From Siphonodentalium dalli (taxonomy: Eukaryota; Mollusca; Scaphopoda; Gadilida; Siphonodentaliidae), in assembly GCA_032622095.1 (NCBI GenBank), contig CP136063.1, positions 218,071,982 through 218,135,981 on the forward strand: a stretch of 64,000 nucleotides of DNA, in the 5' to 3' direction. Positions 1 through 54,219 of this stretch are shown in pieces. The stretch's first letter is position 1; each line of letters starts with the position of its first letter. The translations under genes were made by a program, and so were the position numbers. The notes under the pieces were generated by a model. The model ran no database searches. It saw only the letters and a list, made by a program, of their open reading frames with translations, and was not told where the DNA came from.

Positions 1-96
1 ACACTAGTGACAGAATGGGGAACAATTACTTATTTTTAACCCGAACTCCCACTCATAGGACAAGGCCCATGCTAGGTTTATACAGTATATATAGTA

Positions 97-899
97 CTAG
101 AAGGTGACCCGACTTCGTCCGGGCTATTAAAAAACCAAATTTCAAGTCGATTGCTCCACCCGTTTCCTAGATCTGGTCTGCGCATGCGCGAAGCTGGTGT
201 CGCACGTGCTCGGCGACCCGATAAAATTCGTATCCGGGGCAAGATACATTCACATACCAAATTTAAAGTCAATATCTCAACCCGTTTCCTAGATCTGGTC
301 TGCGCATGCGCGAAGCTGGTGTCGCACGTGCTCGGCGACCCGATAAAATTCGTATCCGGGGCAAGATATATTCACATACCAAATTTCAAGTCGATAGCTA
401 CACCCGTTTCCGAGATATATAGCCCAATGTCATTTGCGGATACCTCGGCCGGTGATGAGTTAACGCGACACAGTCAAATGCATCGGCAGGGTGAGAGTTA
501 ACGTAATCTAACTTTATGACCTCTGACGACGTCATAGAAATTACGCATTGATTTTATCCCGATAAAAGCATCGGACCACTTGTACCTAATAATTGAGGCA
601 GATAACTAAAACGGATACATACATATTATATATCGTTGGAAAGAGGACACGCCACAGATTCTAACCGTGCAAATTATATGACTGGCAATTTATTATTCGC
701 GCTATATCGAATCGATTTGTGAGCACCGAACTGAAATATATTAGCGCAAAAACGGCGTAAAAACAGATTTGACCTCCGCACGTGAAAAGTTGACCTCGCA
801 CGGACAAATAAATATGCCTATGTTCGTCTCCGGCCGAAAACACATCCAAATACCAAATTTCATCGAAATTGGCTTAGTCGTTTTGGAGTCCATCGATTT

Positions 900-941
<42 letters not shown>

Positions 942-976
942 AACACATACACAGATCTTTCAAAATATATAATAGA
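97..976 (-). mobile_element. non-autonomous Helitron, chimeric HelA/HelC
   Basis: On the minus strand the element starts TCTATTATATATTTTG at 976 and ends CTAG at 97-100. The 3' hairpin (GCCCGGAC, GAA, GTCGGG on the minus strand) lies a few bases inside. It sits between host A and T with no target duplication, the canonical Helitron pattern, and the empty site is at 18108/18109. After the start comes a long TG/CA run (about 903-936), then HelA-like head sequence to about 740, then a middle module (about 500-660) shared with 52140-52400, then two to three copies of the HelC 122-bp unit with GCGCATGCGC cores. No helicase or Rep coding is present. Confidence 0.88.
903..936. repeat. (CA)n microsatellite
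   Basis: Uninterrupted CA repeat inside the Helitron at 97-976, about 40-70 bases from its 5' end. The HelA, HelB and HelC elements of the window carry a TG- or TCTG-rich run at the same relative place, so the run belongs to the element rather than the host. Confidence 0.9.
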
Positions 977-1562
977 TGTTCAAAGAGTAATCAACACATA
1001 ATGCAACATTTAGCTGACACACGCTGTGCTTACAAAATATCTCGTTACACCAGTGCTATTGAATAAACCTAAAATTTCAATTGCGTACACAAGAGATGAT
1101 TGGTTCACAATAATATGTGTAATCGCTCATCTGTTTGAGTTCGGGCTGTTTTCATATAATTTTGTCTTCTGATTTAAAATAATTTAGGAAAGAACAGGGA
1201 TCGTTCACCATCAGCCCACTTGGTATATCTAATTGTTACATCAGTGACATCAAAATTGCGGACATGGTTTCAAACATAATTTACTGAAGAAAGTAAGTGT
1301 TGTTAGTTAGAACGTCTCACATACAAGCTGTAAACATTATAATATTTGTTTCAGAATGCAACACATGTCTTTATTGAAATACAATGGCATGACATGAGCA
1401 GCTGATCTGGTTTCATCTAAATATCTTGTCAGGGACACCAGTGACATTCAGGAGAGATATGTTTTTGTTTTGTTTAAAGAATCTATAAAGCCTTTGACCG
1501 AACACGATGATATTGTGAACACATGCATATGCTATGTGTTTATTAGTTATGAATTAACATTA

Positions 1563-4840: not shown

Positions 4841-5755
4841 TTATAATTACGACAATCCGCATAAATTAGTTGGTGATTAAACAAGTTCTTTTTAAAGAAA
4901 CTATATTAAAAACACTAAGATAGTAAAAATACCCAAGTGATATTTGTGTCTGGACTCAGCTGCTCTTTTAACCGAAATGGGAAATTGGGTCGAGAATAAA
5001 TTGGGCGACCGACCGGAAGTTAGAGATGAACACACACAATTCGATCGCTGTTTCCGACATTCCAACTACACAAAAGCAAGAGACCACACCCGTAAACTAT
5101 TAAACTGTACTTGCTGGTGTAAATTTCACTTATTTAAAACGATTCTAGAACATCATGTATTGTCATAAAGGCAGTCCGATTCGATAGCGATTCCGAAGCG
5201 GTGTTCCCAAACTTCGCCACCGAATTTGTGGTCTCCGGCGACTCGAAAAGTAAACAGTCGCTACAAAGGTGCATTCTATGCTCTCATGACCACTGCCATG
5301 TCATATTATTATTGGCACGAAGCTGGATAAATGCTATTACTAATGGTGGAATAGTTATGTAATACATTGTTTTATCCCCAAATAAATTAATGTACTATTT
5401 TGCTGTTTAATCGGCGATAATTTTTCGCTGATATTTGGCGTCTTGCGTTACCACTAGAAACGGAAGTGATTTCTTGCGATTTGATTGGTGGACAAAATAA
5501 AAATCCGGATAAATTCGCCCCATGGATATTCGACTTGGTTTGCGAACTTTTAAAGGTATCACTACCCCCAGTGATGCGGGAAACGACACTTCCCTCCACT
5601 GATAGATATTGTCGCTACCAAGCGTATATAAGGGCCTTGGCCAATCAAATGCACGCATTTTAGTCAAAGCGAAAGTAGTTGTAATTATAATTATTTATGG
5701 GTCTCGATTAATTATAAAAAAACGTGTAGTTGACTCTGAATCTTCAAATTATCTA
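4841..5755. other. unassigned stretch left of the Helitron array
   Basis: No recognisable gene. Around 5620-5650 TATATAAGGG is followed by a CCAATCA motif; in this order it does not make a convincing promoter. The last host base before the Helitron array is A at 5755. Confidence 0.4.
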
Positions 5756-6265
5756 TCTCATATATATTTTGAAGACCTCTGTCTGTATGTATGTTTGTTT
5801 GTCTGTCTGTCTGTCATTTATACAAATCTACGATTCTCGACAGATCGGGACGAAACTTGGTACGTGTGTGTAGTTTGACCAGGCGGTGAACGTTGTCGTA
5901 TTGGCGAGCCCGTGCGGCGCCCGATTCGCGCATGCGCAGACGAGATCTCGGAAACGGGTGGAGCTATCGACTTGAAATTTGCTATGTGAATGTATCTTGC
6001 CCCGGATACGAATTTTATCGGGTCGCCGAGCCCGTGCGACACCAGCTTCGCGCATGCGCAGACGAGATCTCGGAAACGGGTGGAGCTATCGACTTGAAAT
6101 TTGCTATGTGAATGTATCTTGCCCCGGATACGAATTTTATCGGGTCGCCGAGCCCGTGCGACGCCAGTTTCGCGCATGCGCAGACCAGATCTCGGAAACG
6201 GGTAGAGCTATCTACTTGAAATTTGTTTTTTGAATAGCCCGGACAACGTCGGGCTCATCGTCTAG
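5756..6265 (+). mobile_element. Helitron array unit 1 (HelC-1)
   Basis: Starts TCTCATATATATTTTG after host A and ends with the hairpin GCCCGGAC-AAC-GTCGGGC followed 7 nt later by CTAG (6262-6265). A TCTG-rich run follows the start. The body holds three copies of the 122-bp HelC unit, each with GCGCATGCGCAGAC and GGAAACGGGTGGAGCTATC. No protein is encoded. The element is non-autonomous and would need a Rep/helicase from elsewhere. Confidence 0.85.
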
Positions 6266-6814
6266 TCTCATATATATTTTGAAGACCTCTGTCTGTCTGT
6301 CTGTTTGTCTGTCTGTTTGTCTGTCATTAATACAAATCTACGATTCTCGACCGATCGGTACTAAACTTGGTACGTGCGTGTAGTTTGACCAGGCGGTCGT
6401 CGTTGTCGTATTGGCGAGCCCGTGTGGCGCCCGCTTCGCGCATGCGCAGACGAGATCTCGGAAACGGGTGGACCTATCGACTTGAAATTTGCTATGTGAA
6501 TGTATCTTGCCCCGGATACGAATTTTATCGGGTCGCCGAGCCCGTGCGACGCCAGCTTCGCGCATGCGCAGACGAGATCTCGGAACGGGTGGAGCTATCG
6601 ACTTGAAATTTGGCATGTGAATGTATCTTGCCCCGGATACGAATTTTATCGGGTCGCCGAGCCCGTGCGACGCCAGCTTCGCGCATGCGAAGACGAGATC
6701 TCGGAAACGGGTGGAGCTATCGACTTGCGCAGACCATATCTCGGAAACGGGTGGAGCTATCGACTTGAAATTTGGTTTTTGAATAGCCCGGACAACGTCG
6801 GGCTCATCGGCTAG
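6266..6814 (+). mobile_element. Helitron array unit 2 (HelC-2)
   Basis: Begins TCTCATATATATTTTG immediately after the CTAG of unit 1 and ends CTAG at 6811-6814. It has the same head, TCTG run and hairpin as unit 1. It carries three full 122-bp units plus a collapsed partial unit near 6700-6770, showing copy-number change inside the element. Confidence 0.85.
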
Positions 6815-7446
6815 TCTCATATATATTTTGAAGACCGCTGTCTGTCTGTCTGTTTGTCTGTTTGTCTGTCTGTCATTAATACAAATCTACGATTCTCGAC
6901 CGATCGGGACGAAACTTGGTACGTGTATGTAGTTTGACCAGGCGGTGGACGTTGTCGTATTGGCGAGCCCGTGCGGCGCCCGCTTCGCGCATGCGCAGAC
7001 GAGATCTCGGAAACGGGTGGAGCTATCGACTTGAAATTTGCTATGTGAATGTATCTTGCCCCGGATACGAATTTTATCGGGTCGCCGAGCCCGTGCGACG
7101 CCAGCTTCGCGCATGCGCAGACGAAATCTCGGAAACGGGTGGAGCTATCGACTTGAAATTTGGTATGTGAATGTATCTTGCCCCGGATACGAATTTTATC
7201 GGGTCGTCGAGCCCGTGCGACACCAGCTTCGCGCATGCGCAGACCAGATCTCGGAAACGGGTGGAGCTATCGACTTGAAATTTGGTATGTGAATGTATCT
7301 TGCCCCGGATACGAATTTTAGCGGGTCGCCGAGCCCGTGCGACGCCAGCTTCGCGCATGCGCAGACCAGATCTCGGAAACGGGTGGAGCTATCGACTTGA
7401 AATTTGGTTTTTGAATAGCCCGGACAACGTCGGGCTCATCGGCTAG
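6815..7446 (+). mobile_element. Helitron array unit 3 (HelC-3)
   Basis: Begins directly after the CTAG of unit 2 and ends CTAG at 7443-7446. It contains four 122-bp units, measured from the repeating CGAGCCCGTGCG phrase at 6964, 7086, 7208 and 7330. Otherwise it is nearly identical to units 1 and 2, which suggests recent activity. Confidence 0.85.
6964..7446 (+). repeat. 122-bp minisatellite inside HelC-3
   Basis: Four tandem units of exactly 122 bp, each with one palindromic GCGCATGCGC core. The unit length is not a multiple of three, so the long open frames in this region change frame every unit and are not genes. Confidence 0.9.
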
Positions 7447-8660
7447 TCTATACTATATATTTTGAGACTTCGTATATATGTGTGTATGTGTGTGTGTGTG
7501 TACTTCATAGAATCCAAAACGCGTGTACAGATTGAGCTCAAACTTCCTATGTAAGTGTCAAATCCCACCGACACGACCGTGGTCGCAGTTTAGAAAAGCT
7601 CAGAGCACCCGTTCTCCAATCTCAAATCACCGCAAAGGCACGGCGTGGGTTAACCAAGTGATTATTTAATGAGCGTTTGTTTTTGACGCATCTCTATAAA
7701 GAGCGTCTGTTTGCCATTCAACGCTATTTGCATCTGCAGAGAGATATACGGAACATACATTAAATTTAAAAAACATTTGTTTCTGACCAACCCTGCGAGC
7801 ACGGATGGCGCGCTTTGTTTTTACAGTATATAGTTATATACCGAAATCATCCCAGATAATCACGAATATAGCATCAGATTTCTCCCCAGATATACCGTTA
7901 TAAAAAGCTACTGGAATCTGCCAATCTACGGGAAATTCCAGGGAATGCCGATTGAGCTCAAACTTGCTACCCACGGGAAGTGTCATATATATGAGTGTGT
8001 CCTTTATAGACTCGAACCGATTGAGCTCAAACTTGCTAAATAAGAAAATAGCCCCCAAGCCGTAAATATCAACAACAACGATATTGCTACCTACGGGGAG
8101 CAACGTTATTAGCATCTGCAGAATTATGCAGAGAGAAAATGCTTTCCTATTTTTAGAACGCAACACATGTTTACGTCGCGTTGGTGATTGAGGTTCACAA
8201 CGGGGTTAATTGACTGTCCGCTCTTTGCGACGATGAGGTTCACGGCGGGGACTATTGACCAACACTCACAATTTCGTCTTTTGCATCAGATACCAACACC
8301 TCGACCGATCGGGACGAAACTTGGTACGTGAGTGTAGTTTGACCAGGTGGTCGTCGCTGTCGTATTGGCGAGCCCGTGCGACGCCCGTGCAGCGCATGCG
8401 CAGACGAGATCTCGGAAACGGGTGGAGCTATCGACTTGAATTTTGCTATGTGAATGTATCTTGCGCCGGGTACAAATTTTATCGGGTCGCCGAGTCCGTG
8501 CGACGCCAGCTTCGCGCATGCGCAGACCAGATCTCGGAAACGGGTGGAGCTACCGGGTACAAATTTTTCTTATTGAAACGCGTGGAGCTAAAAATTAAAA
8601 AAAAATATTAAAAAAATGTCATGTTTCGGACAAGCCGCCGGTGGCGGGCTAACCTGCTAG
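7447..8660 (+). mobile_element. Helitron array unit 4 (HelB-1, HelC segment inside)
   Basis: Starts TCTATACTATATATTTTG after the CTAG of unit 3. It ends with the HelB hairpin CCGCC-GGT-GGCGG, then GCTAACCTG and CTAG (8657-8660). The first 650 bases are nearly identical to HelB-3 (11894-12541), with repeated TTGAGCTCAAACTT phrases. From about 8283 to 8550 it carries HelC sequence with two GCGCATGCGCAGAC cores, so it is a chimera or nested copy. Confidence 0.8.
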
Positions 8661-9865
8661 TACTATATATTTTGAGACTTCCGTATGTGTGTGTGTACTT
8701 TATAGAATCGAAAACGACTGCACCCATCGAGCTCAAATTTCGTATACAAGTGTAAAAACACACGAACACCGTAGTTGTCGCGTTTTGGAGAAGCTCTGAT
8801 CACCCTTTATCCACCCCCAAATCACCGCAAAGGCACGGCGTGGGTTAATCAAGTGATTATTTAATGAGCGTTTGTTTTTGACGCATCGCTATAAAGAGCG
8901 TCTGTTTACCATTCAACGTTATTAGCATCTGCAGAGAGATATACGGGAACATTGAGTGGTTTCCTATGCGGGGAGATTTATTGGATGCCATAGTACTCTT
9001 ACAACATCATTGTTATAGTATGTATGACACTTAGGTCAGGACTTAGGGGGGTAGTTATAGGCATAATGCTTCTCAGAAATCCAGGTTACAAACCAACACT
9101 CACAATTTCGTATTTACGCAAACGTATACGGGGCTTTCCTATTTTTAGAACGCAACACATGACACCAAACAAAATTCCGTCGCGTTGGTGATGGCGTTCA
9201 CGGCGGGATTAATTGACTGTCCGCTCTTTGCGAGGATGGGGTTCTCGACGGGATTAACTTTGCGGGGACTATTGACCATCTCGTAAGGGTGGACAACCTC
9301 TGTCAGGGGCTGCTCAATGGCCACGTGCAGGTTAAATAAAATCATACCTCTTCTGGGTCTGGGCGTAAAAACACACGGGGATCGTCGACGTCGCATTGTG
9401 TGAAACATTCTTATGTCTGTCGTTCCTAGGAACGGGGGAATTTTTCATCGGGTCAGTCTTAACCTTCAAACGGGTACCCACAAATTATATATTGTGACCC
9501 CGACATGACCTTGACCTTGAAAATGATCAATTCAAGGTCAAATCGGGTAAAATATTGAAAAACCCAATATCGTTCCTAGGAAGGGGGGATTTCATCGGGT
9601 AAATTTTTCCGCCAGAAACAAAAAATTAAAAAATTCAGAAAAAAAATATATTAAATTAAAAAAATTCAGAAAAAAAATATATTACATTTAAAAAACATTA
9701 AATTAATATTAAAAAATAAACATGTCATAAAATGTCATGTTTCGGAAAAAATTCAGAAAAAAAATATATTACATTTAAAAAACATTAAATTAATATTAAA
9801 AAATAAACATGTCATAAAATGTCATGTTTCGGACAAACGCCGCCGGTGGCGGGCTAACCTGCTAG
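8661..9865 (+). mobile_element. Helitron array unit 5 (HelB-2)
   Basis: Follows CTAG directly but begins TACTATATATTTTG, so four bases of the usual HelB start are missing while the leading T remains. It ends with the HelB hairpin and CTAG at 9862-9865. About 9496-9556 is a HelA-type TGACCTTGA/TCAAGGTCA block. Positions 9661-9746 and 9747-9832 are an exact 86-bp tandem duplication of AT-rich sequence. About 8990-9100 also resembles 19150-19290. Confidence 0.8.
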
Positions 9866-10494
9866 TCTATTATATATTTTGGGAAATCTGTGTGTGTGTG
9901 TGTGTCTGTCTGTTCGCGATGGACTCTGAAAACGGCCGAGCCGATTTCGATGAAACTTGGTACGTGAGGTTACTTTCGACCGGGGAGTGGCATCGGCCTA
10001 TTAATTTGTCCGTGTGACGTGACCTTAACCATGAAATCGGATCATTTCAAGGTCGAACGCCCGAGTATCACGGGATTTCGATAAAAATTAGTGTCTAGGG
10101 ATACTTTCGTATGGGGAGTGTCGTAAGCTTATTCGTTTGCCCGTGCGACGTGACCCTGACCTTGAAATCTGGTAAATTCAAGGTCAAATCGCCAATTTTT
10201 ATGGGATTTCGACGAAATTTGATACACAGGGTTACTTTTGTCCACTGGGTGTTTTGGACGGGTCAAATCGTGACCCCGACCTGACCATGACCTTCAAAAT
10301 GATTAATTCAAGGTCAAATCGGGTAAAACCGGATGGATTTCGACGGGTACTTTTGTCCGGGCAGTATTTTGGACGGGTCAAATCGTGACCCCACATGACC
10401 TTGACCGTCAAAATGGACAATTCAAGGTCAAATCGCGCAATTTGCCTAAAAGCAGAGGGGAAACAGCCCGGACGAAGTCGGGTCCACCTGCTAG
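9866..10494 (+). mobile_element. Helitron array unit 6 (HelA-1)
   Basis: Starts TCTATTATATATTTTGGG directly after CTAG and ends with the hairpin CCCGGAC-GAA-GTCGGG, then CTAG at 10491-10494. It carries a TG-rich run, the GATGAAACTTGGTACG phrase, and several TGACCTTGA / TCAAGGTCA motifs in both orientations. No coding sequence. Confidence 0.85.
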
Positions 10495-11104
10495 TCTATT
10501 ATATATTTTGGGAAATCTGTGTGTCTGTGTCTGTGTGTTCGCGATGGACTCGAAAACGGCAGAGCCGATTTAGATGAAACTTGGTATATGGGGGTACTTC
10601 CGGCCGCGGAGAGGCATGGGCCTGTTAATTTGCCCGTGCGACGTGACCTTGACCTTGAAATCGGGTCATTTCAAGGTCAAACGCCCGAGTATCACGGGAT
10701 TTCGATGAAAATTAGTGTCTGTGAGTACTTTCGTATGGGGAGTGTCGTAAGCATATTCGTTTGCCCGTTCGACGTGACCTTGACCTTGAAATCGGGTCAA
10801 TTCACGGTCAAATCGCGAATTTTGATACGTGGGGTTACCTTTGTCCACTTAGTGTTTTGGACGGGTCGAGTCGTGACCCCGACCTGACCTTGACCTTCAA
10901 AATGATCAATTCGAGGTCAAATCGGGTAAAACCGGATGGATTTGGACGGGTACTTTTGTCGGGTACTTTTGTCCGGGCAGTGTTTTGGACGGGTCAAATC
11001 GTGACACCACCTGACCTTCAAAATGGACAATTCAAGGTCAAATCGCGCAATTCGCCGAAAAGCAGAGGGGAAACAGCCCGGACGAAGTCGGGTCCACCTG
11101 CTAG
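10495..11104 (+). mobile_element. Helitron array unit 7 (HelA-2)
   Basis: Same start and end as HelA-1, with CTAG at 11101-11104. It contains about seven exact TGACCTTGA or TCAAGGTCA motifs, including overlapping pairs in TGACCTTGACCTTGA. Confidence 0.85.
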
Positions 11105-11893
11105 TCTATTATATATTTTGGGAAATCTGTGTGTGTGTCTGTCTGTCTGTTCGCGATAGACTCGAAAACGGCCGAGCCGATTTCGATGAAACTTGGTACG
11201 TGGGGGTACTTTCGACCGGGGAGTGGCATCGGCCTATTAATTTGCCCGTGCGACGTGACATTGACCTTGACATCGGGTCATTTCAAGGTCGAACGCCCGA
11301 GTATCACGGGATTTCGATAACAAATAGGTCTAGGGATACTTTCGTATGGGGAGTGTCGTAAGCTTATTCGTTTGCCCGTGCGACGTGAGCCTGACCTTGA
11401 AATAGGGTAAATTCAAGGTCAAATCACGAATTTTGATGGGATTTCGACGAAATTTGATACCTAGGGTTACTTTTGTCCACTGAGTGTTTTGGGCGGGTCG
11501 AGTCGTGACCCCGACCTGACCTTGACCTTCAAAATGATCAATTCGACGTCAAATCGGGTAAAACCGGATGGATTTCGACGGGTACTTTTGTCGGGTACTT
11601 TTGTCCGGGCAGTGTTTTCGACGGGTCAAATAGTAACCCCACCTGACCTTGACCTTCAAAATGGACAATTCAAGGTCAAATCGCGCAATTCGCCGAAAAG
11701 CAGAGGGGAAACAGCCCGGACGAAGTCGGGTCCACCTTTTGTCGGGTACTTTTGTCCGTGCAGTGTTTTGGACGAGTCAAATCGTGACCCCACCTGACCT
11801 TGACCTTCAAAGTGGACAATTCAAGGTCACATCGCGCAATTCGCCGAAAATCAGAGGGGAAACAGCCCGGACGAAGTCGGGTCCACCTGCTAG
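11105..11893 (+). mobile_element. Helitron array unit 8 (HelA-3, duplicated 3' end)
   Basis: Same head as the other HelA copies. A first terminal hairpin at about 11714-11731 is followed by TCCACC but not CTAG. A second copy of the last ~150 bases then ends correctly at CTAG 11890-11893. This looks like an internal 3'-end duplication or bypass of the first end. Confidence 0.83.
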
Positions 11894-11924
11894 TCTATAC
11901 TATATATTTTGAGACTTCGTATAT

Positions 11925-11967
<43 letters not shown>

Positions 11968-13575
11968 ATAGAATCCAAAACGCGTGTACAGATTGAGCTC
12001 AAACTTCCTATGTAAGTGTCAAATCCCACCGACACGACCGTGGTCGCAGTTTAGAAAAGCTCAGAACACCCGTTCTCCAATCTCAAATCACCGCAAAGGC
12101 ACGGCGTGGGTTAATCAAGTGATTATTTAATGAGCGTTTGTTTTTGACGCATCTCTATAAAGAGCGTCTGTTTGCCATTCAACGTTATTTGCATCTGCAG
12201 AGAGATATACGGAACATACATTAAATTTAAAAAACATTTGTTTCTGACCAACCCTGCGAGCACGGATGGCGCGCTTTGTTTTTACAGTATATAGTTATAT
12301 ACCGAAATCATCCCAGATAATCACGAATATAGCATCAGATTTCTCCCCAGATATACCGTTATAAAGCAACTGGAATCTGCCAATCTACGGGAAATTCCAG
12401 GGAATGCCGATTGAGCTCAAACTTGCTACCCACGGGAAGTGTCATATATATGAGTGTGTCCTTTATAGACTCGAACCGATTGAGCTCAAACTTGCTAAAT
12501 AAGAAAATAGCCCCCAAGCCGTAAATATCAACAACAACGATATTACTAAATACACGTTTTCGGCAATGTGAGAGTTTTCGGGGAGCCGTGATGCCAACAA
12601 CGACCCGAAGACAGATTTCCCGACGGGAAGCGTTTGTTTTAAATTCAATGCAATGTTATCGTAGAGAGATTTCACGAAACAAAGAATGCGTTGGTTGTCG
12701 TTCCTAGGAAGGGGGGATTTCTACGGGTAAATTTTTCCGCCAGAAACAAAAAAATTAATTAAAACAATTTACAATTTAATTAAAACAATTTAAAATTAAA
12801 AAAAATTAACAATAAAAAAACAATTCAGAAACAAAATATATTAAATTTAAAAAACATTAAATTCATATTCAAAAATAAAAAACAAAAATAAATAAAAACA
12901 AAATAATTACGCGTGTAGGAACGGGCATCCCCACGGCAATGTCGGCTTATAAGACATCTTTACTACACATGACAGCCGATGGACAATTGGTCTCTATATA
13001 TGTACCAAAATTACGCCGCGTTGGTGACTGGGAAATTCCAGGGAATGCCGATTGAGCTCAAACTTGCTACCTACGGGAAGTGTCATATATATGAGTGTGT
13101 CCTTTATAGACTCGAACCGATTGAGCTCAAACTTGCTAAATATTGACTGGGAAATTACAGGGAATGCCGATTGAGCTCAAAATTGCTACCTACGGGAAGT
13201 GTCATATATATGTGTGTGTCCTTTATAGACTCGAACCGATTGAGCTCAAACTTGCTAAATACGGCAAGTGTCATGGACGGGTTCATTGAAAAACAAAAAA
13301 AATCGGGTCAAATTGAAAAACAAAATTAAAAAGGCACAATTAACTCCTTGAAAAACCCCAAAAAATCGGGTAAAATTTAAAAAAGCACAATTAACTCATT
13401 GAAAAACAAAATAATTAACTCATTGAAAAACAAAAAATTTAATTAAAATTGTCATGTTTCTGACTATTGCCGAAATTTGCTGCAAATGCAGCACAAGTGT
13501 CTCGGAACCTGTTGCAATTGCTTTTTCGAACAAAGCCATGGGACGAATGCCGCCAGTGGCGGGCTAACCTGCTAG
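11894..13575 (+). mobile_element. Helitron array unit 9 (HelB-3)
   Basis: Starts TCTATACTATATATTTTG after CTAG and ends with the HelB hairpin and CTAG at 13572-13575. A (GT)n run lies at about 11930-11961. Two A/T-rich low-complexity blocks (about 12745-12910 and 13280-13440) and three repeats of a ~120-bp phrase with TTGAGCTCAAACTTGCTA follow. The 5' part is nearly identical to HelB-1. Confidence 0.82.
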
Positions 13576-14194
13576 TCTATTATATATTTTGGGAAATCTG
13601 TCTGTGTGCGTGTGTTCGCGATGGACTCGAAAACGGCCGATTTCGATGAAACTTGGTATTTGGGGGTACTTTCGGCCGGGGAGTGGCATGGGCCTATTAA
13701 TTTGCCCGTGAGACGTGACCTTGAAATCGGGTCATTTCAATGTCAAACGCCCGAGTATCACGGGATTTCGATGAAAATTAGTGTCTGGGGAAACTTTCGT
13801 ATGGGGAGTGTTGTAAGCCTATTCGTTTGCCCGTGCGACGTGATCTTGACCTTGAAATCGGGTCAATTCAAGGTCAAATCGCGAATTTTGATGGGATTTC
13901 GACGAAATTTGATACCTAGGGTTACTTTTGTCCACTGGGTGTTTTGGACGGGTCGAGTCATGACCCTGACCTGACCTTCACCTTCAAAATGATCAATTCG
14001 AGGTCAAATCTGGTAAAACCGGATGGATTTCGACGGGTACTTTTGTTGGGTACTTTTGTCCGGACAGTGTTTTGGACGGGTCAAATCGTGACCCCACCTG
14101 ACCTTGACCTTCAAAATGGACAATTCAAGGTCAAATCGCGCAATTTGCCGAAAAGCAGAGGGGAAACAGCCCGGACGAAGTCGGGTCCACCTGC
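13576..14194 (+). mobile_element. Helitron array unit 10 (HelA-4, eroded 3' tip)
   Basis: HelA head directly after CTAG. The terminal hairpin is intact, but the last bases read CCACCTGC and then unrelated GCATCTAAC, so the final TAG of CTAG is lost. It is the 3'-most and only damaged end of the array, consistent with it being the oldest unit. Confidence 0.82.
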
Positions 14195-15090: not shown

Positions 15091-16668
15091 TAGGGTCCTG
15101 CGAATATTCGATATTCGATTCGAAAGTCAAATTCGATTCGAATTCGATTCGAAATTTCCAACTCGAAATTTCGAATATACACTGACAAAAAAAGTAGGAT
15201 GTTTACGAACAGGTAAACACGTCGATCTTAGCTGTTACTGTGCCATATTATTCCCAAAACTTATGAATATATGCAGCTTATAATTCTTATTGTACATCGC
15301 GAAAGTTCGCATGATATTAAGTATAAGTATAACCAGTAATTGGACACTATAGGACGACTAAATGCATCTGAATTCTAGCCTTGAACATGGTAGCCAAAAG
15401 CTTGGAGACAGCATATGGACCGATGACGCACGTAAATTATAATAGCGATGAAACTGAGCAACGTTGTCATTTTACTATTTCAGTTTCATTTCCAAACAGG
15501 GGCGGCAAGAAAACGGCCTATTTGCCCTTGCCGCTCCTGTACAATATAATCATGTTTATTTCTGAATATTTCACTGTCAGCATTATGTTTGTAAATATTG
15601 TGCAAAAACAATAAAAAACGCTAACGTTATCCACAGACTATACGTCTTAGATTCAGCGTTATGTAATATCGCTGAGAATGCAAACCAAGCTCCGTGCAGA
15701 GTTCAGTCCCCTACGCAGGACTTACCGATGCCAGCACCTACACGTAAATTGCCGTAATGTGAAGAAACGTCGCATTTATTTATTTGAGATTTTTGTAGGT
15801 TACACTTCATTCTGCATTATTCTGAGAAACTGAACTGTCCATATTTATTTGAAAATGGTCTAGATCAAGCCAGAATGAATTATAACTGGCAAAACACTTC
15901 AATCAAAAATGTTAGATTTAATAAGAAAATACACGTGACGGCAGCGTTCAGACATCGCGTGGCGAGCGGACTGAACTCTGTTTTCCGGCTTGAATGCAAA
16001 CAACACGTGTTCCCGGCGTCGAAAAGTGCACGTGTTTTCGTTTGAAGTTGACTTTCAGTGTCGGAGCGATCCTTGAAACTTGACAATTTGTCGACCGTTT
16101 TTCATGTTTATTTTTAAACATGATACAAACTGCATGCAGTACTGGAACTTACACATGTGATGAATGCAACATGGTATATAAATCGCAAGCGTCTGGGACA
16201 ACGACCCATCTAAGCACCCAGCACTACATAAACAGGCTACCCTGCGACTGTTGTTGCATCTTCAAGTTTATAACAACGGGTGTTTCCCAGTGCCGATTTG
16301 CAACTGTGCATGTACATGCAAACTCTAAAAATTTAGCATGATTTTAATTCCGATAATCCGTTTCGTGTTTATATATTTAATCGTCGTGATGACGCATGGA
16401 CGTTTTAATGTTTTTTTTCTCGCGACAATTATCAATTGAAGTTAATAGTATCAGGAACGATCGGTTGATCGCCACATAACTTAAGATGGAACTTCATGAA
16501 AGTTCCTAGAACGTTTCACAAATCGTCTGATAATTGACATTAAATGCCTAATTGTGAATGCAACCCACAGGTATGATTCGATTCGATATTCGATTCGATA
16601 TTCGATTCGATTTTGTCGACTCGATTCGATATTCGATTCGATCAAAATCTCCAATTCGCAGGACCCTA
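15091..16668 (+). mobile_element. hAT transposon, non-autonomous, TSD TGCGCCAT
   Basis: The terminal inverted repeat TAGGGTCCTGCGAAT opens the element, and its reverse complement closes it at 16668. A perfect 8-bp target duplication TGCGCCAT flanks it (15083-15090 and 16669-16676). Subterminal regions are rich in ATTCGATTCGA. The length of 1578 bp is short for an autonomous hAT. The interior has a BED-finger remnant near 16150 but no dimerisation domain or transposase catalytic core that I can see. Confidence 0.93.
16120..16341 (+). pseudogene. BED zinc-finger remnant of hAT transposase
   Basis: The frame reads YTCDECNMVYKSQASG, then TTHLSTQH: a C-x2-C pair, about 18 residues, then H-x4-H. 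This spacing is typical of the BED finger at the N terminus of hAT transposases. Nothing recognisable as transposase follows, and the frame ends at 16341. It lies inside the hAT element with the 8-bp target duplication, which supports the reading. I judge it the surviving 5' exon of a deleted transposase gene. Confidence 0.5.
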
Positions 16669-16676
16669 TGCGCCAT

Positions 16677-18012
16677 CCCCCGTGGTTGGCAAATTCTCAT
16701 CAGTCCCCATCGTGTATGCATGATTCCCAACTTTTCCCCCACCGCGATGACCTTACATATACCTTTAAGTACCCCAACCCCCCCCCCCAAGTTAACAAAT
16801 GGTCAGTGCACAAATGTATAACCTGTTTATTTTTCTTTGAAACAGCATAAAATCGCGCAAACAGTGCCTATATATATCGTTCAATATATAGTTGTTTAGT
16901 CATCAGCGACGTGGCTATAGAGAGCTCCGTGGGTTTTCCAGCTGCATCCCGCCCCTTTTAAGTTGTTTTAACCAGGCCGAATTCGCAATGTCGTGTAATT
17001 TCATTTGCTTCCCACCTCGTGGCTTGGAATTTCCTAACTGTACCTATTGTGGGGAGGAATCATGAAACAATTTGAAATATGTGTCTGAGCACTGCAAAAT
17101 CCTATCATCTATTAAAGTCTAACTCAATGAAAATTCAGGCCTCGATTTTGTTTGGGTTTTTTTGGTAATATTTTTTAAAATCCGAACCTGACTGAAATCT
17201 GCATGTAGTCCTAGAATATATATATATATATATATAGGTCTAGTCTACAGACAAATCCAGGCCGCCATTTGTTTTTGTTTGTCTGTTTGTTTTATTTGTA
17301 ATTTGTAGTTGATTAGCAGGTTTTGACTGGCCAATAATCAGTGAGGTGGAAGAACATTTAAATGAATTTAATTTGACTGGCCTCAAGATTTCCAAGTGTT
17401 GGAAATTTCCAAGTCAGATTGGAAAATTCCCATCGAAATTGTTGACCGAATGTAGGAAAGTTGTTTGAAACCCAACAAATTCCCCGCTAATTAATAATTA
17501 CCCCCCCCCCCCCCCACCCACCCCTATATCAAAACAGAGTCCCTGTTACGATAGTCGTTTTATGTATATTTTTGTTATATTTTCTCAACTCGTGACGGGA
17601 GTAGCATCAAATAATCTCTTGCGTATTCTTAAAGAACGTCCACGAGTATTCTTAAAGAATTAATGCCCACGGGTATTCTTAAAAGAATGGCCGTGGGTGT
17701 TAAAATAACACTCATGTGATCAAAAAGCTTGAGTATTCTGCCAGATAAGAGTCATGTCAGGATAAAGGGATAACACGCCGGTGGGTTTTAAGATGCGAGA
17801 AATTGTTGCGTTATGTAAGCATTCTACACCGGTCCGTTATGTCAGATAAGTTCAACGGTTCAACCCATGATTGTCAGCTTCATTGATATAGCTACCTTTA
17901 TTGTGATTTTTATGATCTGGGCATATCATGGCACCCGAAGCCGATCGTTGACATAGTGTTGATAGAAAATGTCACTGGTATAACGCTCAGATTGTTACAC
18001 CAGTGATGTGTT
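16677..18012. other. unassigned stretch with low-complexity tracts
   Basis: Contains a poly-C run near 16780, a short (TA)n near 17217-17234 and a C-rich run at about 17502-17520. About 17300-17470 is related to the tandem units at 63287-63930 (shared phrases TTTTGACTGGCC and GTTGGAAATTTCCAA). TATTCTTAAAGAA recurs at short intervals around 17620-17690. Confidence 0.5.
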
Positions 18013-18694
18013 ACACTACTGACAGAATGGGGAACAATTACTTATTTTTAACCCGAACTCACACTCATAGGACAAGGCCCATGCTAGGTTTATACAGTAT
18101 ATATAGTATGTTCAAAGAGTAATCAACACATAATGCAACATTTAGCTGACACACGCTGTGCTTACAAAATATCTCGTTACACCAGATATATTGAATAAAC
18201 CTAAAATTTCAATTGCGTACGCAAGAGACGAGTGGTTCACAATAATATGTGTAACCGCTCATCTGTTTGAGTTCGGGCTGTTTTCATATAATTTGTTCTT
18301 CTGATTTAATATAATTTAGGAAAGAACAGGGATCGTTCACCATCAGCCCACTTGGTATATCTAATTGTTACATTAGTGATATAAAAATTGCGGACATGGT
18401 TTCAAACATAATTTACTGAAGAAAGTAAGTGTTGTTATTTAGAACGTCTCACATATAAGCTGTAAACATTAGAATATTTGTTTCAGAATGCAACACATGC
18501 CTTTATTGAAATACAATGGCATGACAGGAGCAGCTGATCTGGTTTCATCTAAATATCTTGTCAGGGACATGTTACACCAGTGACATTCAGGAGAGATATG
18601 GGTTTTTTTTAAAGAATCTATAAAGCGTTTGACCGAACACGATATTGTGAACACATGCATATGCTATGTGTGTATTAGTTATGAATTAACATTA
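18013..18694 (+). repeat. segmental duplication, copy 2 (Helitron empty site)
   Basis: Matches 1-96 joined to 977-1562. The junction at 18108/18109 reads ATATATAGTA|TGTTCAAAG with no trace of the Helitron, giving an exact pre-insertion site. Confidence 0.92.
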
Positions 18695-22543: not shown

Positions 22544-22609
22544 TTCAACACGGCCTTATACATGTTATGTGCTACATGTATGTGTAGTGAGTGTAGAAAT
22601 AAGAATAAC

Positions 22610-25120
22610 ATGGCAAGAGTTTCGAATTATAATTGCGTGCTAATACTCCTAGTGCTGACGGCGTGTTCAGTTCGCTGTGGAGGACAGTCACCATGCAATA
22701 TCTCTGAAAGCGGACGTGACGTTATTGCAGATTGTTCATTAAGGAATCTACAAGATGTTCCACAGGAACTACCTAGAACCACAACAATCTTAAAATTGTT
22801 TGGCAATAAGTTGGATGTCTTAAAATGGGGTGTTTTTTCAAACTTGACGGAACTGCGGGTATTAGATCTCAGTAATAATTCAATATCCATCATGCATTCA
22901 GGTTGTTTCGGTGGACTAGAACTCCTGCATTCGTTGAACCTCTCTTCCAACAGTTTGGTGATGAACGCAGAGACGTACGGTACAGACCTGTTTAAGCCTT
23001 TAATCAATTTACGATCGATTTCCCTCATCAATAACACACGGGAGGGTTATGACTATCCCGACGAAGCTCTATCCACGTTGAGTTCACTCAAGAGTCTATT
23101 TATTGATGGTATTCCAGAGAAAGAGTTCGGCTCAGGAATGGCGAAACTTGTGAATTTGACCACGCTATACATCTCTGGTGTTGGAAAAGCTGGTATATGT
23201 TCCATCAACAGATTGTCGTCGGGTTTCTTTCACAACATCAAACATCTAACCCATGTTACCCTAACCGGCTGCAATATAACTGCGATAGAGAATGAAACTT
23301 TCAGCAAAGTGCCACATATTTTATCATTGGATTTATCTTGGAATAATAATCTGACATTCTCTGGTTTTAGCCACGTGACATACGGATTGCGCAATTCAAA
23401 GATCCGGACACTTAAAATGGCGGGAGTTTATCCAAAGCATTCTCTCGGCACAATCTTGACACTTGAACACACCAGATACATGCGCAACATGTCGCTTATT
23501 GAACTTGACATAAGTTTCAATAGTTTGGAGTTGTTTGAAATGGGAGTGATTGTCGAAAACATTCCAAGGTCCATCGAAAGATTGGTTCTGGACGGTAACC
23601 GACTAATGATGGGAGGTTATTTAAATGAGTTGCCATGCCTTGAAAAACTACACGAACTAAATATCTCTGATCAAACATATTTCGATATCTTTACAAACGG
23701 TTATCCACATGACAGAAGATCGTATAATGTTCAGTTAAATTCTTCAAGTTCAAGTCCCTATAACTGTATTGCCTATACTAATTCCAACATTTTCCCTCCG
23801 TCGTTGAAGCGACTTCATTTAGAGAAGAATGGTATGCGGGGAGAAATCGGTCGCATTAATTTCACAGGAAATGTTGTTGAATATGTTAACATAAAAGGTA
23901 ATAGCTTATACAAATGGAGAGGACCGATCACTGGTGTTTCTCATCTTAAAACACTCGACTTGTCAAAAAACTATTGCGTGCATGTGAACATCACATTCTT
24001 CGAAAATATGATTCGGCTGAAGTATCTGACACTAGACTCAAACACATTGTATCAGATTAGTTACGATGTGAATGGAACGATTTTCAGTAAGTTAGCGGAC
24101 CTAGTAAAATTATCAATCAAACATAACAAAATATATGTTTTACATAGAAAATTATTACAGAATTTGGGTAAGCTACGAACGTTCGATTTCTATGACAACA
24201 CACTGTCAACATTTGATGCTGATTTGTCTGGAAATCCCTACCTATCTGTGCTGGACCTCAGATTCAATCGTATTTCGTGGATCTCAGAGAGAACAAGAAA
24301 CGATATGGATAAGCTCGGGTCCAATTTGACTTTGTATTTGGCTGATAATAGTCTAAAGTGCGTTTGCGCCGAAAGTAACATGAATCTGTTACAATGGCTC
24401 CATTCAACCAACGTTCAACTAAAAGAACTCGACAAATATCGATGTTATGACCACAATAATCGGCGAATGTTAATGACTGAGACCTATGCCAAACTGAAGA
24501 AAGAATGTTCGACAATTTCAACCACAACCATTATTTTATCGACAACTGGCGGATCTTTATTCATTTTGCTGATGGTGGCAGTTCTGGTGGCGTTTAAGTA
24601 TCGGTGGAGACTGAAGTATATATATTATCTACGCCGAGCAAGACATTCGAACGGATACGCATCGTTGAACGAATGCTACAATGACGAGACTTATGATGCA
24701 TTCATTTCCTACGCGGACGAAGATCGCATGTTCGTAAAAAACGACATTGTCGATAAACTCGAGACCGAGGCTGGGCTCAAACTGTGTATACACCACCGGG
24801 ATTTCATGCCTGGTCTTCCGATTGAGGATAACATTGCGAGTGCATTACGAAAAAGCAAGTGGATGGTTGTTCTTCTCACAAAATACTATGTAGCAAGCAA
24901 ATGGTGTATTTTCGAATTCAACATGGCGCGCGAGGAGTGCATGTACAACAACAGAGGGCGCATGCTAATCATGGTTGAGTACAAACCCATGCAGCGGGAG
25001 GAGTTACCTCCCGTGATTCAGGAAGAGAGGGCGTTTAACACGTATTCAGCATATCCACAGGGAAATGCAGACGACACGAGGTTCTGGAGACATCTCGTAC
25101 AATCGTTGAAGTCGAAATAA
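22610..25120 (+). CDS. Toll-like receptor, single-exon, one C-terminal cysteine cluster
   Basis: Cell-surface or endosomal innate immune receptor; the TIR domain would recruit MyD88-type adaptors. The 836 residues run: signal peptide about 1-25 (NYNCVLILLVLTACSVRCGG); N-terminal cap with CNISESGRDVIADC about 29-43; leucine-rich repeats about 50-575 with N-glycosylation sites; one C-terminal cap beginning KCVCAES (Cys584, Cys586) and closing at Cys633; membrane segment about 641-663; TIR domain 694-836. TIR box 1 is YDAFISYA (from 695), box 2 is RDFMPG (730-735, with the BB-loop proline at 734) and box 3 is FW (825-826); all are intact. The length is usual for the family. I prefer the ATG at 22610 (context AACATGG, then a clean signal peptide) over the in-frame ATG at 22562, which adds 16 Cys-rich residues. 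No intron is needed. Ligand unknown. Confidence 0.94.
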   Translation: MARVSNYNCVLILLVLTACSVRCGGQSPCNISESGRDVIADCSLRNLQDVPQELPRTTTILKLFGNKLDVLKWGVFSNLTELRVLDLSNNSISIMHSGCFGGLELLHSLNLSSNSLVMNAETYGTDLFKPLINLRSISLINNTREGYDYPDEALSTLSSLKSLFIDGIPEKEFGSGMAKLVNLTTLYISGVGKAGICSINRLSSGFFHNIKHLTHVTLTGCNITAIENETFSKVPHILSLDLSWNNNLTFSGFSHVTYGLRNSKIRTLKMAGVYPKHSLGTILTLEHTRYMRNMSLIELDISFNSLELFEMGVIVENIPRSIERLVLDGNRLMMGGYLNELPCLEKLHELNISDQTYFDIFTNGYPHDRRSYNVQLNSSSSSPYNCIAYTNSNIFPPSLKRLHLEKNGMRGEIGRINFTGNVVEYVNIKGNSLYKWRGPITGVSHLKTLDLSKNYCVHVNITFFENMIRLKYLTLDSNTLYQISYDVNGTIFSKLADLVKLSIKHNKIYVLHRKLLQNLGKLRTFDFYDNTLSTFDADLSGNPYLSVLDLRFNRISWISERTRNDMDKLGSNLTLYLADNSLKCVCAESNMNLLQWLHSTNVQLKELDKYRCYDHNNRRMLMTETYAKLKKECSTISTTTIILSTTGGSLFILLMVAVLVAFKYRWRLKYIYYLRRARHSNGYASLNECYNDETYDAFISYADEDRMFVKNDIVDKLETEAGLKLCIHHRDFMPGLPIEDNIASALRKSKWMVVLLTKYYVASKWCIFEFNMAREECMYNNRGRMLIMVEYKPMQREELPPVIQEERAFNTYSAYPQGNADDTRFWRHLVQSLKSK

Positions 25121-51516: not shown

Positions 51517-52121
51517 ATTAATTTGTCCGTGCGACGTGACCTTGACCTTGAAATCGGGTAATTTCAAGGTCAAACGCCCGAATATCTCGGGATTTAGATG
51601 AAACTTGGTATGTGGGGGTACTTTCGGCCGAGGGGTGACATGAGCCTATTAATTTGCCTGTGCGACGTGACCTTGACCTTGAAATAGGGTCATTTCAAGG
51701 TCTAACGCCCGTATATCACGGGATTTCGATGAAACTTGGTATGTGGGGATATTTTCGGCCGGGGAGAGACATAGGCTCATTAATTTGCCTGTGCGACGTG
51801 ACCTTGACCTTGAAATCGGGTCAATTCAAGGTCAAATCGCCAATTTTGATTGGATTTCGACGAAATTTGATACATGGGGTTACTTTTGTCCACTGAGTGT
51901 TTTGGACGGGTCAAATCGTGACCCCGACCTCACATTGACCTTCTAAATGATCAATTCAAGGTCAAATCGGGTAAAACCGGATGGATTTCGACGGGCACGT
52001 TTGTCAGGTACTTTTGTCCGTGCAGTATTTTGGACTGATCAAATCGTGACCCCATTTTATCTTGACCTTTAAAATGGACAATTCAAGGTCAAAGCCCGGA
52101 CGAAGTCGGGTCACCTTCTAG
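51517..52121 (+). mobile_element. HelA Helitron, 5'-truncated
   Basis: Starts mid-element at ATTAATTTGTCCGTGCGACG and keeps three TGACCTTGACCTTGA blocks. It ends with the hairpin CCCGGAC-GAA-GTCGGG, TCACCTT and CTAG (52118-52121). The CTAG is followed directly by another HelA head. Confidence 0.82.
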
Positions 52122-52865
52122 TCTATTATATATTTTGGAAGATCTGTGTGTGTGTCTGTGTGTGTGTGTAAATAAAATGCCAGTCATAATAATGACACTG
52201 TGAGAATCCTTCGTGTTTCCTCTTTCCAACGATATATAATGCGTGTGTATCCGTTTTAGTTATCTGCCTCAATTATCAAGAAGAAGTGGTACTATCTTCC
52301 ATCAGGATAAAAACAATGCGTAACTTCTATGACGTCGTTATAGGTCATAACGTTAGATCACGTTAACGCTTAACCGGCCGATGCATTTGACTGTTTGAGA
52401 CGTCTTGGCGATATCTCGGGCACCGATGGTAATTTATCTTTACGTTGAAACTTGATAATTAATGAGCGTGTGTATATGAGGCGTATTACTTGAGTGGAAA
52501 TCAAATCGGGTTAAACTGGCGGATTTTTACGGACGAAATTTGATGCATAGGGTATCTCGGTATCCGCTGGGCCGATTTCCCGGTATCCGCTGGGCCGAAT
52601 TCCACCATTTTTGGGGTGTTGGTGTTTAACCCCACCTGACCTTGACCTTCAAAATGGTCAATTCAAGGTCAAAGCCCGGACGAAGTCGGGTCACCTTCTA
52701 CAAGGTCAGATCGGGTAAAACCGGATGTATTTCGACGGGTACTTTTGTCGGGTACTTTTGTTCGGGCAGTGTTTTGGACGGTTCAAATCGTGACCTTACT
52801 TGACCTTGGCCTTCAAAATAGACAATTCAAGGTCAAAGCCCGGACGAAGTCGGGTCACCTTCTAG
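52122..52865 (+). mobile_element. HelA Helitron carrying the 97-976 middle module
   Basis: Starts TCTATTATATATTTTGG after CTAG and ends hairpin-CTAG at 52862-52865. About 52140-52400 (CTTTCCAACGATATATAAT, GTTTTAGTTATCTGCCTCAA) is shared with the minus-strand Helitron at 97-976. A premature terminal hairpin plus CTTCTA at about 52675-52700 is followed by a second 3' end, as in HelA-3. Confidence 0.83.
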
Positions 52866-54219
52866 TTGGATATAGTGATTTGCTTTTCAGAAATTGTGTA
52901 TTGTTGATCAGTGATTCCTGGATCACTATTAATATTATAAAAATCAGCTTCGTACTCATAAGTGCAAATATAGTCATTATGGGGGGGGGGGGGCGTGGGG
53001 TCTCTGGAAGAATACGGAACCTAGAAAATCTGATTTATTTGAACATTCCTGGGGTGTAACACATTTGAGGCATCAAATCTTTCGTACGCGATTGTGTAAA
53101 TAAAACCCAGCAGGCTCTCGGTTAATAGCCAGTTATGTTGGAAGGGCCACGTTAGAAGGTTTATCAATCTAAACCTCCCCATTATATGAAAATGTCATAG
53201 TGTATATTTGTATCTTTCTTCTGCTCATATTACCTGAAAATCCCTCAGAATTAATATAATACACCCTTACACCAGATTTTTATAATTGAATGTCATTATT
53301 CCATTTAGTATAAAGAAAGGGCTAAATAATTCATCTCACATGGAGATACTTCGAATTGCGCAATGTCCATGATATACCTGGATATACAGGGTATTATGCT
53401 TATCCGTGCATGCTTGACGAGTGTTTCTATCATATGGAAATTAAGGGAGGGGAAAATGACGCTTCGTTGGTGCAGGTAATATATGCGTATATACAACAAA
53501 GAACAAATCGAGTACATGAGACATTGCGATTTAATGACCGTTTCATGCATAACATCGAGATGTCGAGCTACCATGCAAGTGTTTTATGGGCTGAAACGTT
53601 GGAATCTCGATTATGAACCCCACGTAGCTATTAATTGTATGATGTTGCAATACTCGCTATATCTATATTTGCGAATGTTGGAAGAACCCGTTGTAAACTC
53701 GATGAAAACTCGAACCTAACATGGGGTGCAAATAGAAATTACTGGACGGGGTGCATTTAGAAACTATAGGTGAACACCCCTAACATGGACCTCCAGCCAC
53801 GTCCCTGCTAACTCGTGAGTTACACTGATTTAACACATCATAGCCTATACTAGTAATGACATCAGAACATATATGAAACACAAACAAACATACATGCTTT
53901 CACTCTTGCGCATGCACCCACACCCTAAAGATGATCCATGTGCCGGTCTGTCCGAATTATAATTGGGATATTTTCAAGCAGAAACGGTCAAAATGTGAAG
54001 CATATCATTCGCATCTTTGACATCCCAGCTCTGGTTTGGCGACATTTCATCGCATGATCGATCTGCGGCTTTGATACCCGAAGTTATGATGGGTACCCAC
54101 ACTTGGACTTAGCTAGTATTTTTGCGAACCGCTCTGCAGGTTGGACAATTTTATGGTTAATTAAACATATATTTTTCTATTGATACACACATTATCCGCC
54201 ATCTACGACTGATAATTAT
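52866..54219. other. unassigned stretch
   Basis: A G run lies at 52981-52993. Open frames near 53356-53719 overlap each other and show no recognised domain. No gene supported. Confidence 0.4.

Follow-up and report, generated by a model that had tools for sequence, protein, structure and literature searches.

A segment of 880 bp at positions 97-976 of the window, a 64,000-nucleotide stretch of the genome of the scaphopod Siphonodentalium dalli, is missing from a paralogous copy of its flanks at 18013-18694. The locus raises the questions of whether the segment was gained by one copy or lost by the other, what kind of element it is, and what its target looked like before.

Empty site and boundaries of the insert

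The flanks of the segment were paired with the paralogue by BLAST. The left flank (1-96, forward strand) matches 18013-18108 at 97.9% identity, and 966-1562, which includes the right flank (977-1562, forward strand), matches 18098-18694 at 93.7%. At the empty site, 18108|18109, the two flanks join without a mismatch. The BLAST pairings overlap by 11 bp (86-96 and 966-976), which is an imperfect resemblance between the AT-rich target and the element's own end. When 14 placements of the gap were compared, 97-976 and 96-975 gave no mismatches in the 40 bp around the join and the remaining 12 gave 1 to 6. The two best placements are indistinguishable, there being an A both at 96 and at 976. This one-base ambiguity can also be written as a 1-bp shared T, and 97-976 shows no target duplication longer than that against the paralogue. 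The minus-strand sequence of the insert with its bordering bases is A|TCTATTATATATTTTGAAAG...GGGTCACCTTCTAG|T.

The first-pass annotation of this DNA had described the 880 bases as absent from 18013-18694 at the junction, and both the BLAST pairing and the gap placements bear this out. Its edges, 97 and 976, are correct to one base, so that what it called direct proof of both boundaries stands when softened by one base of placement; the pairwise alignment that it had suggested as a check leaves the gap edges unshifted beyond this ambiguity and reveals no longer target duplication. The insert does begin with TC and end with CTAG on the minus strand (TCTATT...TTCTAG, with other copies having the same ends) and does lie between A and T, the empty site being A|T. 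The claim that no target duplication was left is right for anything beyond the single T, which is formally ambiguous; it holds for three insertions compared with empty paralogues.

The pairing of 1-1562 with 18013-18694 is real, yet the duplicated block is longer than had been proposed. It starts 1,328 bases to the left of the window edge and ends at 1562, and its twin occupies 16668-18694 on the forward strand; the 2,001 aligned bases contain 51 substitutions (2.55%) and 10 gap events. The duplication, earlier termed segmental, is a local pair in the same orientation about 18 kb apart, but its flank is a member of a low-copy repeat family with 21 matches. Of the fifteen loci of this family that were extracted, two overlap with the filled copy and a third is the empty one. 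Six of the other 12 were aligned across the site, and the rest cover it in part or in pieces. The six diverged copies are 75-81% identical; five are on another contig and one is about 72 Mb away on the same contig.

Direction and age of the insertion

An absent segment by itself cannot separate insertion from loss. Region 97-976 almost certainly arose when an 880-bp non-autonomous Helitron recently inserted itself into one of the two copies of the duplicated 2-kb block. It is very improbable that both copies were once filled and that 18013-18694 lost the element precisely, for instance through a deletion with its ends in the similar 11-mers (86-96, 966-976). Such a loss would draw on the likeness of the two 11-mers, seen in the BLAST overlap, and on a 9-bp stretch that the two window copies have and the diverged ones lack, so that the site had changed before the duplication. 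However, none of the six diverged copies whose alignment spans the site has the insert, and at the empty site the letters are those of the left flank, with no hybrid with the element's end. The sequence of the element also speaks against the loss. In a comparison of 19 full-length copies, from which L016 was left out with its altered right end, the window copy has 3 differences from the family majority and no private substitutions. An insert of the same age as the duplication should have 11.2 substitutions, and the Poisson chance of 3 or fewer is about 0.004, even when all 3 are counted as the insert's own. The copies compared for dating had been selected as similar to the window copy. Ten of the 19 are without private substitutions, in some cases because the comparison includes near-identical neighbours from their arrays; the dating is therefore good but not independent evidence. 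The choice of insertion over loss is settled by the six diverged copies without the insert together with the lack of private substitutions, and the earlier statement that the insertion postdates the duplication holds on the same grounds. The empty state is ancestral.

The 9-bp stretch (18100-18108, also 88-96, forward strand; one of about six equivalent placements) creates the TATATA target discussed below and is present in none of the six diverged copies aligned. Since these copies are without it, the likely order of events is that the target arose, the block was duplicated and the Helitron landed. On the minus strand the stretch duplicates TACT around ATATA.

Two insertions besides 97-976 have empty paralogues. 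The joined flanks of L038 align with C3:212578607-212578846 (L073) along all 240 bases, 237 of them identical and 3 mismatched, without a gap. The joined flanks of L046 match 39 repeat copies at 92-95% among the best 40 of 4,047 candidates; against L074 and L075 the identity is 94-95% and the junction has no gap, with one gap elsewhere in each. Six pairs of joined flanks were queried (L008, L015, L018, L020, L038 and L046), and 39 of the best 40 of the 4,047 rows belong to the L046 flank repeat and one to L038, the other four pairs not being fairly covered. The repeat struck by the L046 insertion recurs at G000:C4:53400489-53418348 with a period near 1,602 bp.

Structure of the element and size of the family

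Judged by the empty paralogue and by full-length copies elsewhere, the element is a non-autonomous canonical Helitron of 880 bp on the minus strand, with its 5' end at 976 and its 3' end at 97. The left terminal sequence, TCTATTATATATTTTGAAAG (957-976, minus strand), contains the 5' TC end, and copies from all nine contigs start in the same way. It is followed by a (GT)n run, a core and 2.3 copies of a 122-bp repeat, the insert as a whole reading A|TCTATTATATATTTTGAAAG...CGAAGTCGGGTCACCTTCTAG|T on the minus strand. TRF places the (AC)n/(GT)n microsatellite near the 5' end at 903-953 and the tandem repeat at 134-416. Copies about 758 bp long probably have one 122-bp unit fewer. The longest open reading frame of the insert has 116 codons, and the insert is therefore treated as non-coding.

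The right terminal sequence of 29 bp (97-125, minus strand) ends in CTAG and, in a comparison of loci, is common to the window element and an autonomous element; it is matched at 100% in L067 and L068 and at 96.6% in L059. A sub-terminal palindrome, CCCG(GACGAAGT)CGGG (108-123, minus strand), ends 11 nt from the 3' end. Its predicted hairpin, with arms at 108-111 and 120-123, is weak by itself, with 4 bp and a z of -0.20 (0.54 in the other folding), and the 3' end folded alone gives no significant hairpin. The spacing of the palindrome recurs in three other candidate right ends, though that scan required a hairpin.

The family is large. At least 83 genome matches to the insert were listed, the best 40 of 1,786 candidates being scored, and many of them cover 1-880 at 97-100% identity. 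The 21-base right end occurs 16,376 times in the genome with at most one mismatch; the same 21 bases read backwards, as a control, occur 0 times. The exact 23-base left end is found 3,056 times, in 1,631 cases after A and in 1,425 after another base. Rfam at gathering scores has no match within the 64-kb window.

Autonomous partner and proposed mechanism

A search for PF14214 gave 151 matches, with 150 of 457 candidates scored, and a number of these lie in frames of more than 1,500 aa. Six PF14214 regions were read, and L059 alone ends in the right end of the window element. This autonomous element, C1:114633093-114642242, is 9,150 bp long and has the left end of the window element; the sequence common to the two comprises about 184 bp at the left terminus and 29 bp at the right. 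The best reading of the window element is that of an internally deleted relative. The partner encodes an uninterrupted RepHel frame of 1697 aa with five Pfam families altogether, among them PF14214 (Helitron_like_N), PF05970 (PIF1) and Pif1_2B; none of the five is an apurinic-type endonuclease family. Immediately upstream of the partner, and directly abutting, are a non-autonomous copy of 857 bp and the end of a further autonomous one. The frame contains motifs that we take to be HUH (at 780), YVCKY (at 920) and Walker A (at 1274).

By analogy with Helitron biochemistry, the HUH/Y2 transposase of the partner would nick a donor copy at its TC end. The helicase, together with replication, would then peel off one strand as far as the hairpin and the CTAG end, and the freed strand, probably by way of a circle, would be joined into a melted AT-rich target.

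Target site

Flanks were collected from 40 loci (L001-L020 and L036-L055, with L055 having no visible ends), which gave 38 distinct upstream and 33 distinct downstream sequences. The left end is preceded by A in 36 of the 38, and the right end is followed by T in 32 of the 33. At least 6 of the 38 upstream sequences consist of Helitron sequence, both exceptions (L016 and L053) among them. The sole downstream exception is L043, where the junction at 2784-2788 reads CTAG|GTTA|TCTATT with a 4-base filler; the same four extra bases are also found before the first copy of the array. In the whole genome there are 12,656 exact right ends; the next base is T in 12,575 of them and a different one in 81.

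The preference extends beyond the join. Of the 33 distinct 3' flanks, 30 contain TATATA between +2 and +14, compared with 7 of 38 on the 5' side and against a background of 270 among the 12,900 A|T sites on both strands of the window (2.1%). Genome-wide, 5,437 of 6,099 exact right ends with T on the forward strand have TATATA after one to seven more bases; the forward strand was used alone, as the reverse-strand count scores overlapping matches several times, and the listing indicates that the forward count takes each start once. When all 2,424 forward head-to-tail junctions are subtracted from both numbers, TATATA is present in 3,013 of 3,675 (82%), which is a lower bound of the share, and the remaining 3,675 flanks include some left ends of other Helitrons.

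The empty sites place the motif before the insertion. The motif 3' of the element, TATATATA (86-93, forward strand, within the left flank), is also found in the empty site, and a TATATA block is already present both at 18108 and at the second empty site, L073; the block therefore belongs to the target and not to the element. The L046 pair fails to show the full motif before insertion, because its two empty copies read CAAATATA, the filled site reading CATATATA. The target motif is A|T plus TATATA on the 3' side, and it preceded the insertion. Helraiser reportedly prefers AT-rich DNA, most strongly on the 3' side (PMC4778049), and an active wheat Helitron family prefers AT dinucleotides (PMC13286980); compared with both, the preference of this family is sharper. 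With few terms searched, no description of a TATATA-type Helitron target was found in the open-licence literature, which is no proof of absence, and a text search did not find the word 'tata' in the available text of PMC4778049, PMC13286980 or PMC5148889.

It is exceedingly unlikely that the element is a Helentron/HINE or a satellite-like repeat in place of a canonical Helitron. The 122-bp internal tandem repeats and the microsatellite do recall the layout of the oyster HINE (PMC7492417), and many copies stand in head-to-tail arrays. However, the target is A|T, with A upstream in those 36 of 38 distinct flanks, and not T|T; the ends are TC...CTAG; the five Pfam families of the partner frame include those of Rep and PIF1 helicase and no endonuclease family; and single copies have precise empty sites. 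These readings, like that of precise loss, are rejected on the evidence of empty sites, ends, target and partner. The identification as a Helitron in the first-pass annotation is supported by the ends, the A|T target and a RepHel partner with the same termini.

Head-to-tail arrays

Head-to-tail CTAG|TC junctions number 5,249 at two mismatches or fewer. They fit a rolling-circle or circular intermediate and would not by themselves prove one. Where the base before an exact left end is not A, it is G in all listed cases but one. In the first 71.43 Mb of C1, with coordinates transcribed by hand, 19 of the 23 left ends without a preceding A abut a Helitron CTAG; 14 of the 23 follow the exact right end of the window family, 5 that of another family, and 4 are unassigned. 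Genome-wide there are 5,300 occurrences, with at most one mismatch, of the other family's right end joined to the initial 16 bases of the left end; this is no count of mixed junctions, because other families may share those 16 bases.

In the arrays read, the units differ in subfamily and size, and the mixed arrays are not explained by a single concatemer from one template. Candidate origins are edge insertion, co-mobilised dimers that followed read-through, and unequal exchange. For tandem Helitrons in Fusarium, both insertion into the 5' end of a resident copy and rolling-circle replication have been proposed (PMC5148889), and tandem Helitron arrays are mentioned for plants and bats (PMC5876387). 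A tentative and rather doubtful suggestion is that the left end, A|TCTATTATATAT, is itself a favoured target (A|T and then TATATA). New copies, those of other families included, would then insert exactly at the left edge of residents far more frequently than at ordinary TATATA sites, and Helitron satellites would owe their growth to repeated insertion at edges as well as to rolling-circle concatemers. Rough extrapolation from 270 per 64 kb gives about nine million TATATA target sites in the genome. The left end as an ordinary site would therefore be hit far too rarely, and special attraction or concatemers are thus needed.

An age gradient along the arrays was considered and rejected. The 19 arrays compared had been selected for containing a close match to the window copy; their 5'-most unit is nearest to the majority in 13 cases, equal in 2 and farther in 4. 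Most of the diverged units differ by shared blocks of changes (subfamilies, mosaics), and array divergence is for that reason unreadable as age. Adjacent units are no more alike than random pairs, with a mean divergence of 2.4% against 2.2% for all pairs (median 0.5%). The tandem array at L054 (G000:C4:159463242-159466857) has a unit of about 1,075 bp, made up of the Helitron and about 212 bp of other sequence, and is probably an insertion that was later amplified with its target.

Other features of the window

The window contains further Helitron sequence. At 52093-52866 there is a head-to-tail junction, in which a right end at 52121 is directly followed by TCTATTATATATTTTGGAAG, and a further right end is at 52865. 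Related repeats occupy 5752-8552 and 9857-14194, the latter with several long similar units. The 122-bp repeat is shared by 5905-7416, and candidate right ends, ...CATCGTCTAG or ...CATCGGCTAG, are at 6265, 6814 and 7446. The only open reading frame of the window of at least 180 aa lies at 22562-25120 on the forward strand; it is an uninterrupted frame of 852 aa with leucine-rich repeats and a TIR domain (Pfam), the architecture of a Toll-like receptor.

Relation to known Helitrons

The element resembles the canonical Helitrons (Helitron1), especially Helibat/Helraiser of bats, in its TC and CTAG ends, A|T target, lack of target duplication and RepHel protein (PMC4778049, PMC5876387). The AT-rich preference of Helibat/Helraiser is, as here, strongest on the 3' side (PMC4778049), but the family of the window has a 3'-side TATATA block a few bases from the join and not general AT-richness. 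Head-to-tail junctions, found here, are also mentioned for plant and bat genomes (PMC5876387). Cg_HINE of Crassostrea gigas (PMC7492417) is likewise short and non-autonomous, with internal tandem repeats and a microsatellite, and its empty sites were sought with joined flanks. Unlike the window element, it prefers TT; HINEs are also described as having sub-terminal inverted repeats. The units in the arrays read here mostly retain both ends. In work on Hel1 Helitrons of insects (PMC6544945), autonomous partners and empty sites, both paralogous and orthologous, served in the same way as here; the hosts are different, and the text consulted gives no comparable target motif. FoHeli of Fusarium, for which both explanations of tandem Helitrons were also raised, has Helitron2-like ends and a few such cases (PMC5148889), compared with the thousands of junctions in this genome.

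Helitrons with paralogous empty sites are already known from published work (PMC6544945, PMC7492417). The insertion itself is ordinary and of a known kind; the interest lies in the choosiness of the target and in the arrays, the family being large. The empty site reveals what alignments of filled copies cannot, namely that the TATATA block belongs to the target and was present first. About 16,000 right ends, an autonomous element with an uninterrupted frame and very young insertions make this genome well suited, as a natural system, to finding what a Helitron transposase reads in its target. It is equally suited to the question of whether tandem arrays arise by way of rolling-circle concatemers or by insertion at the edges of resident copies.
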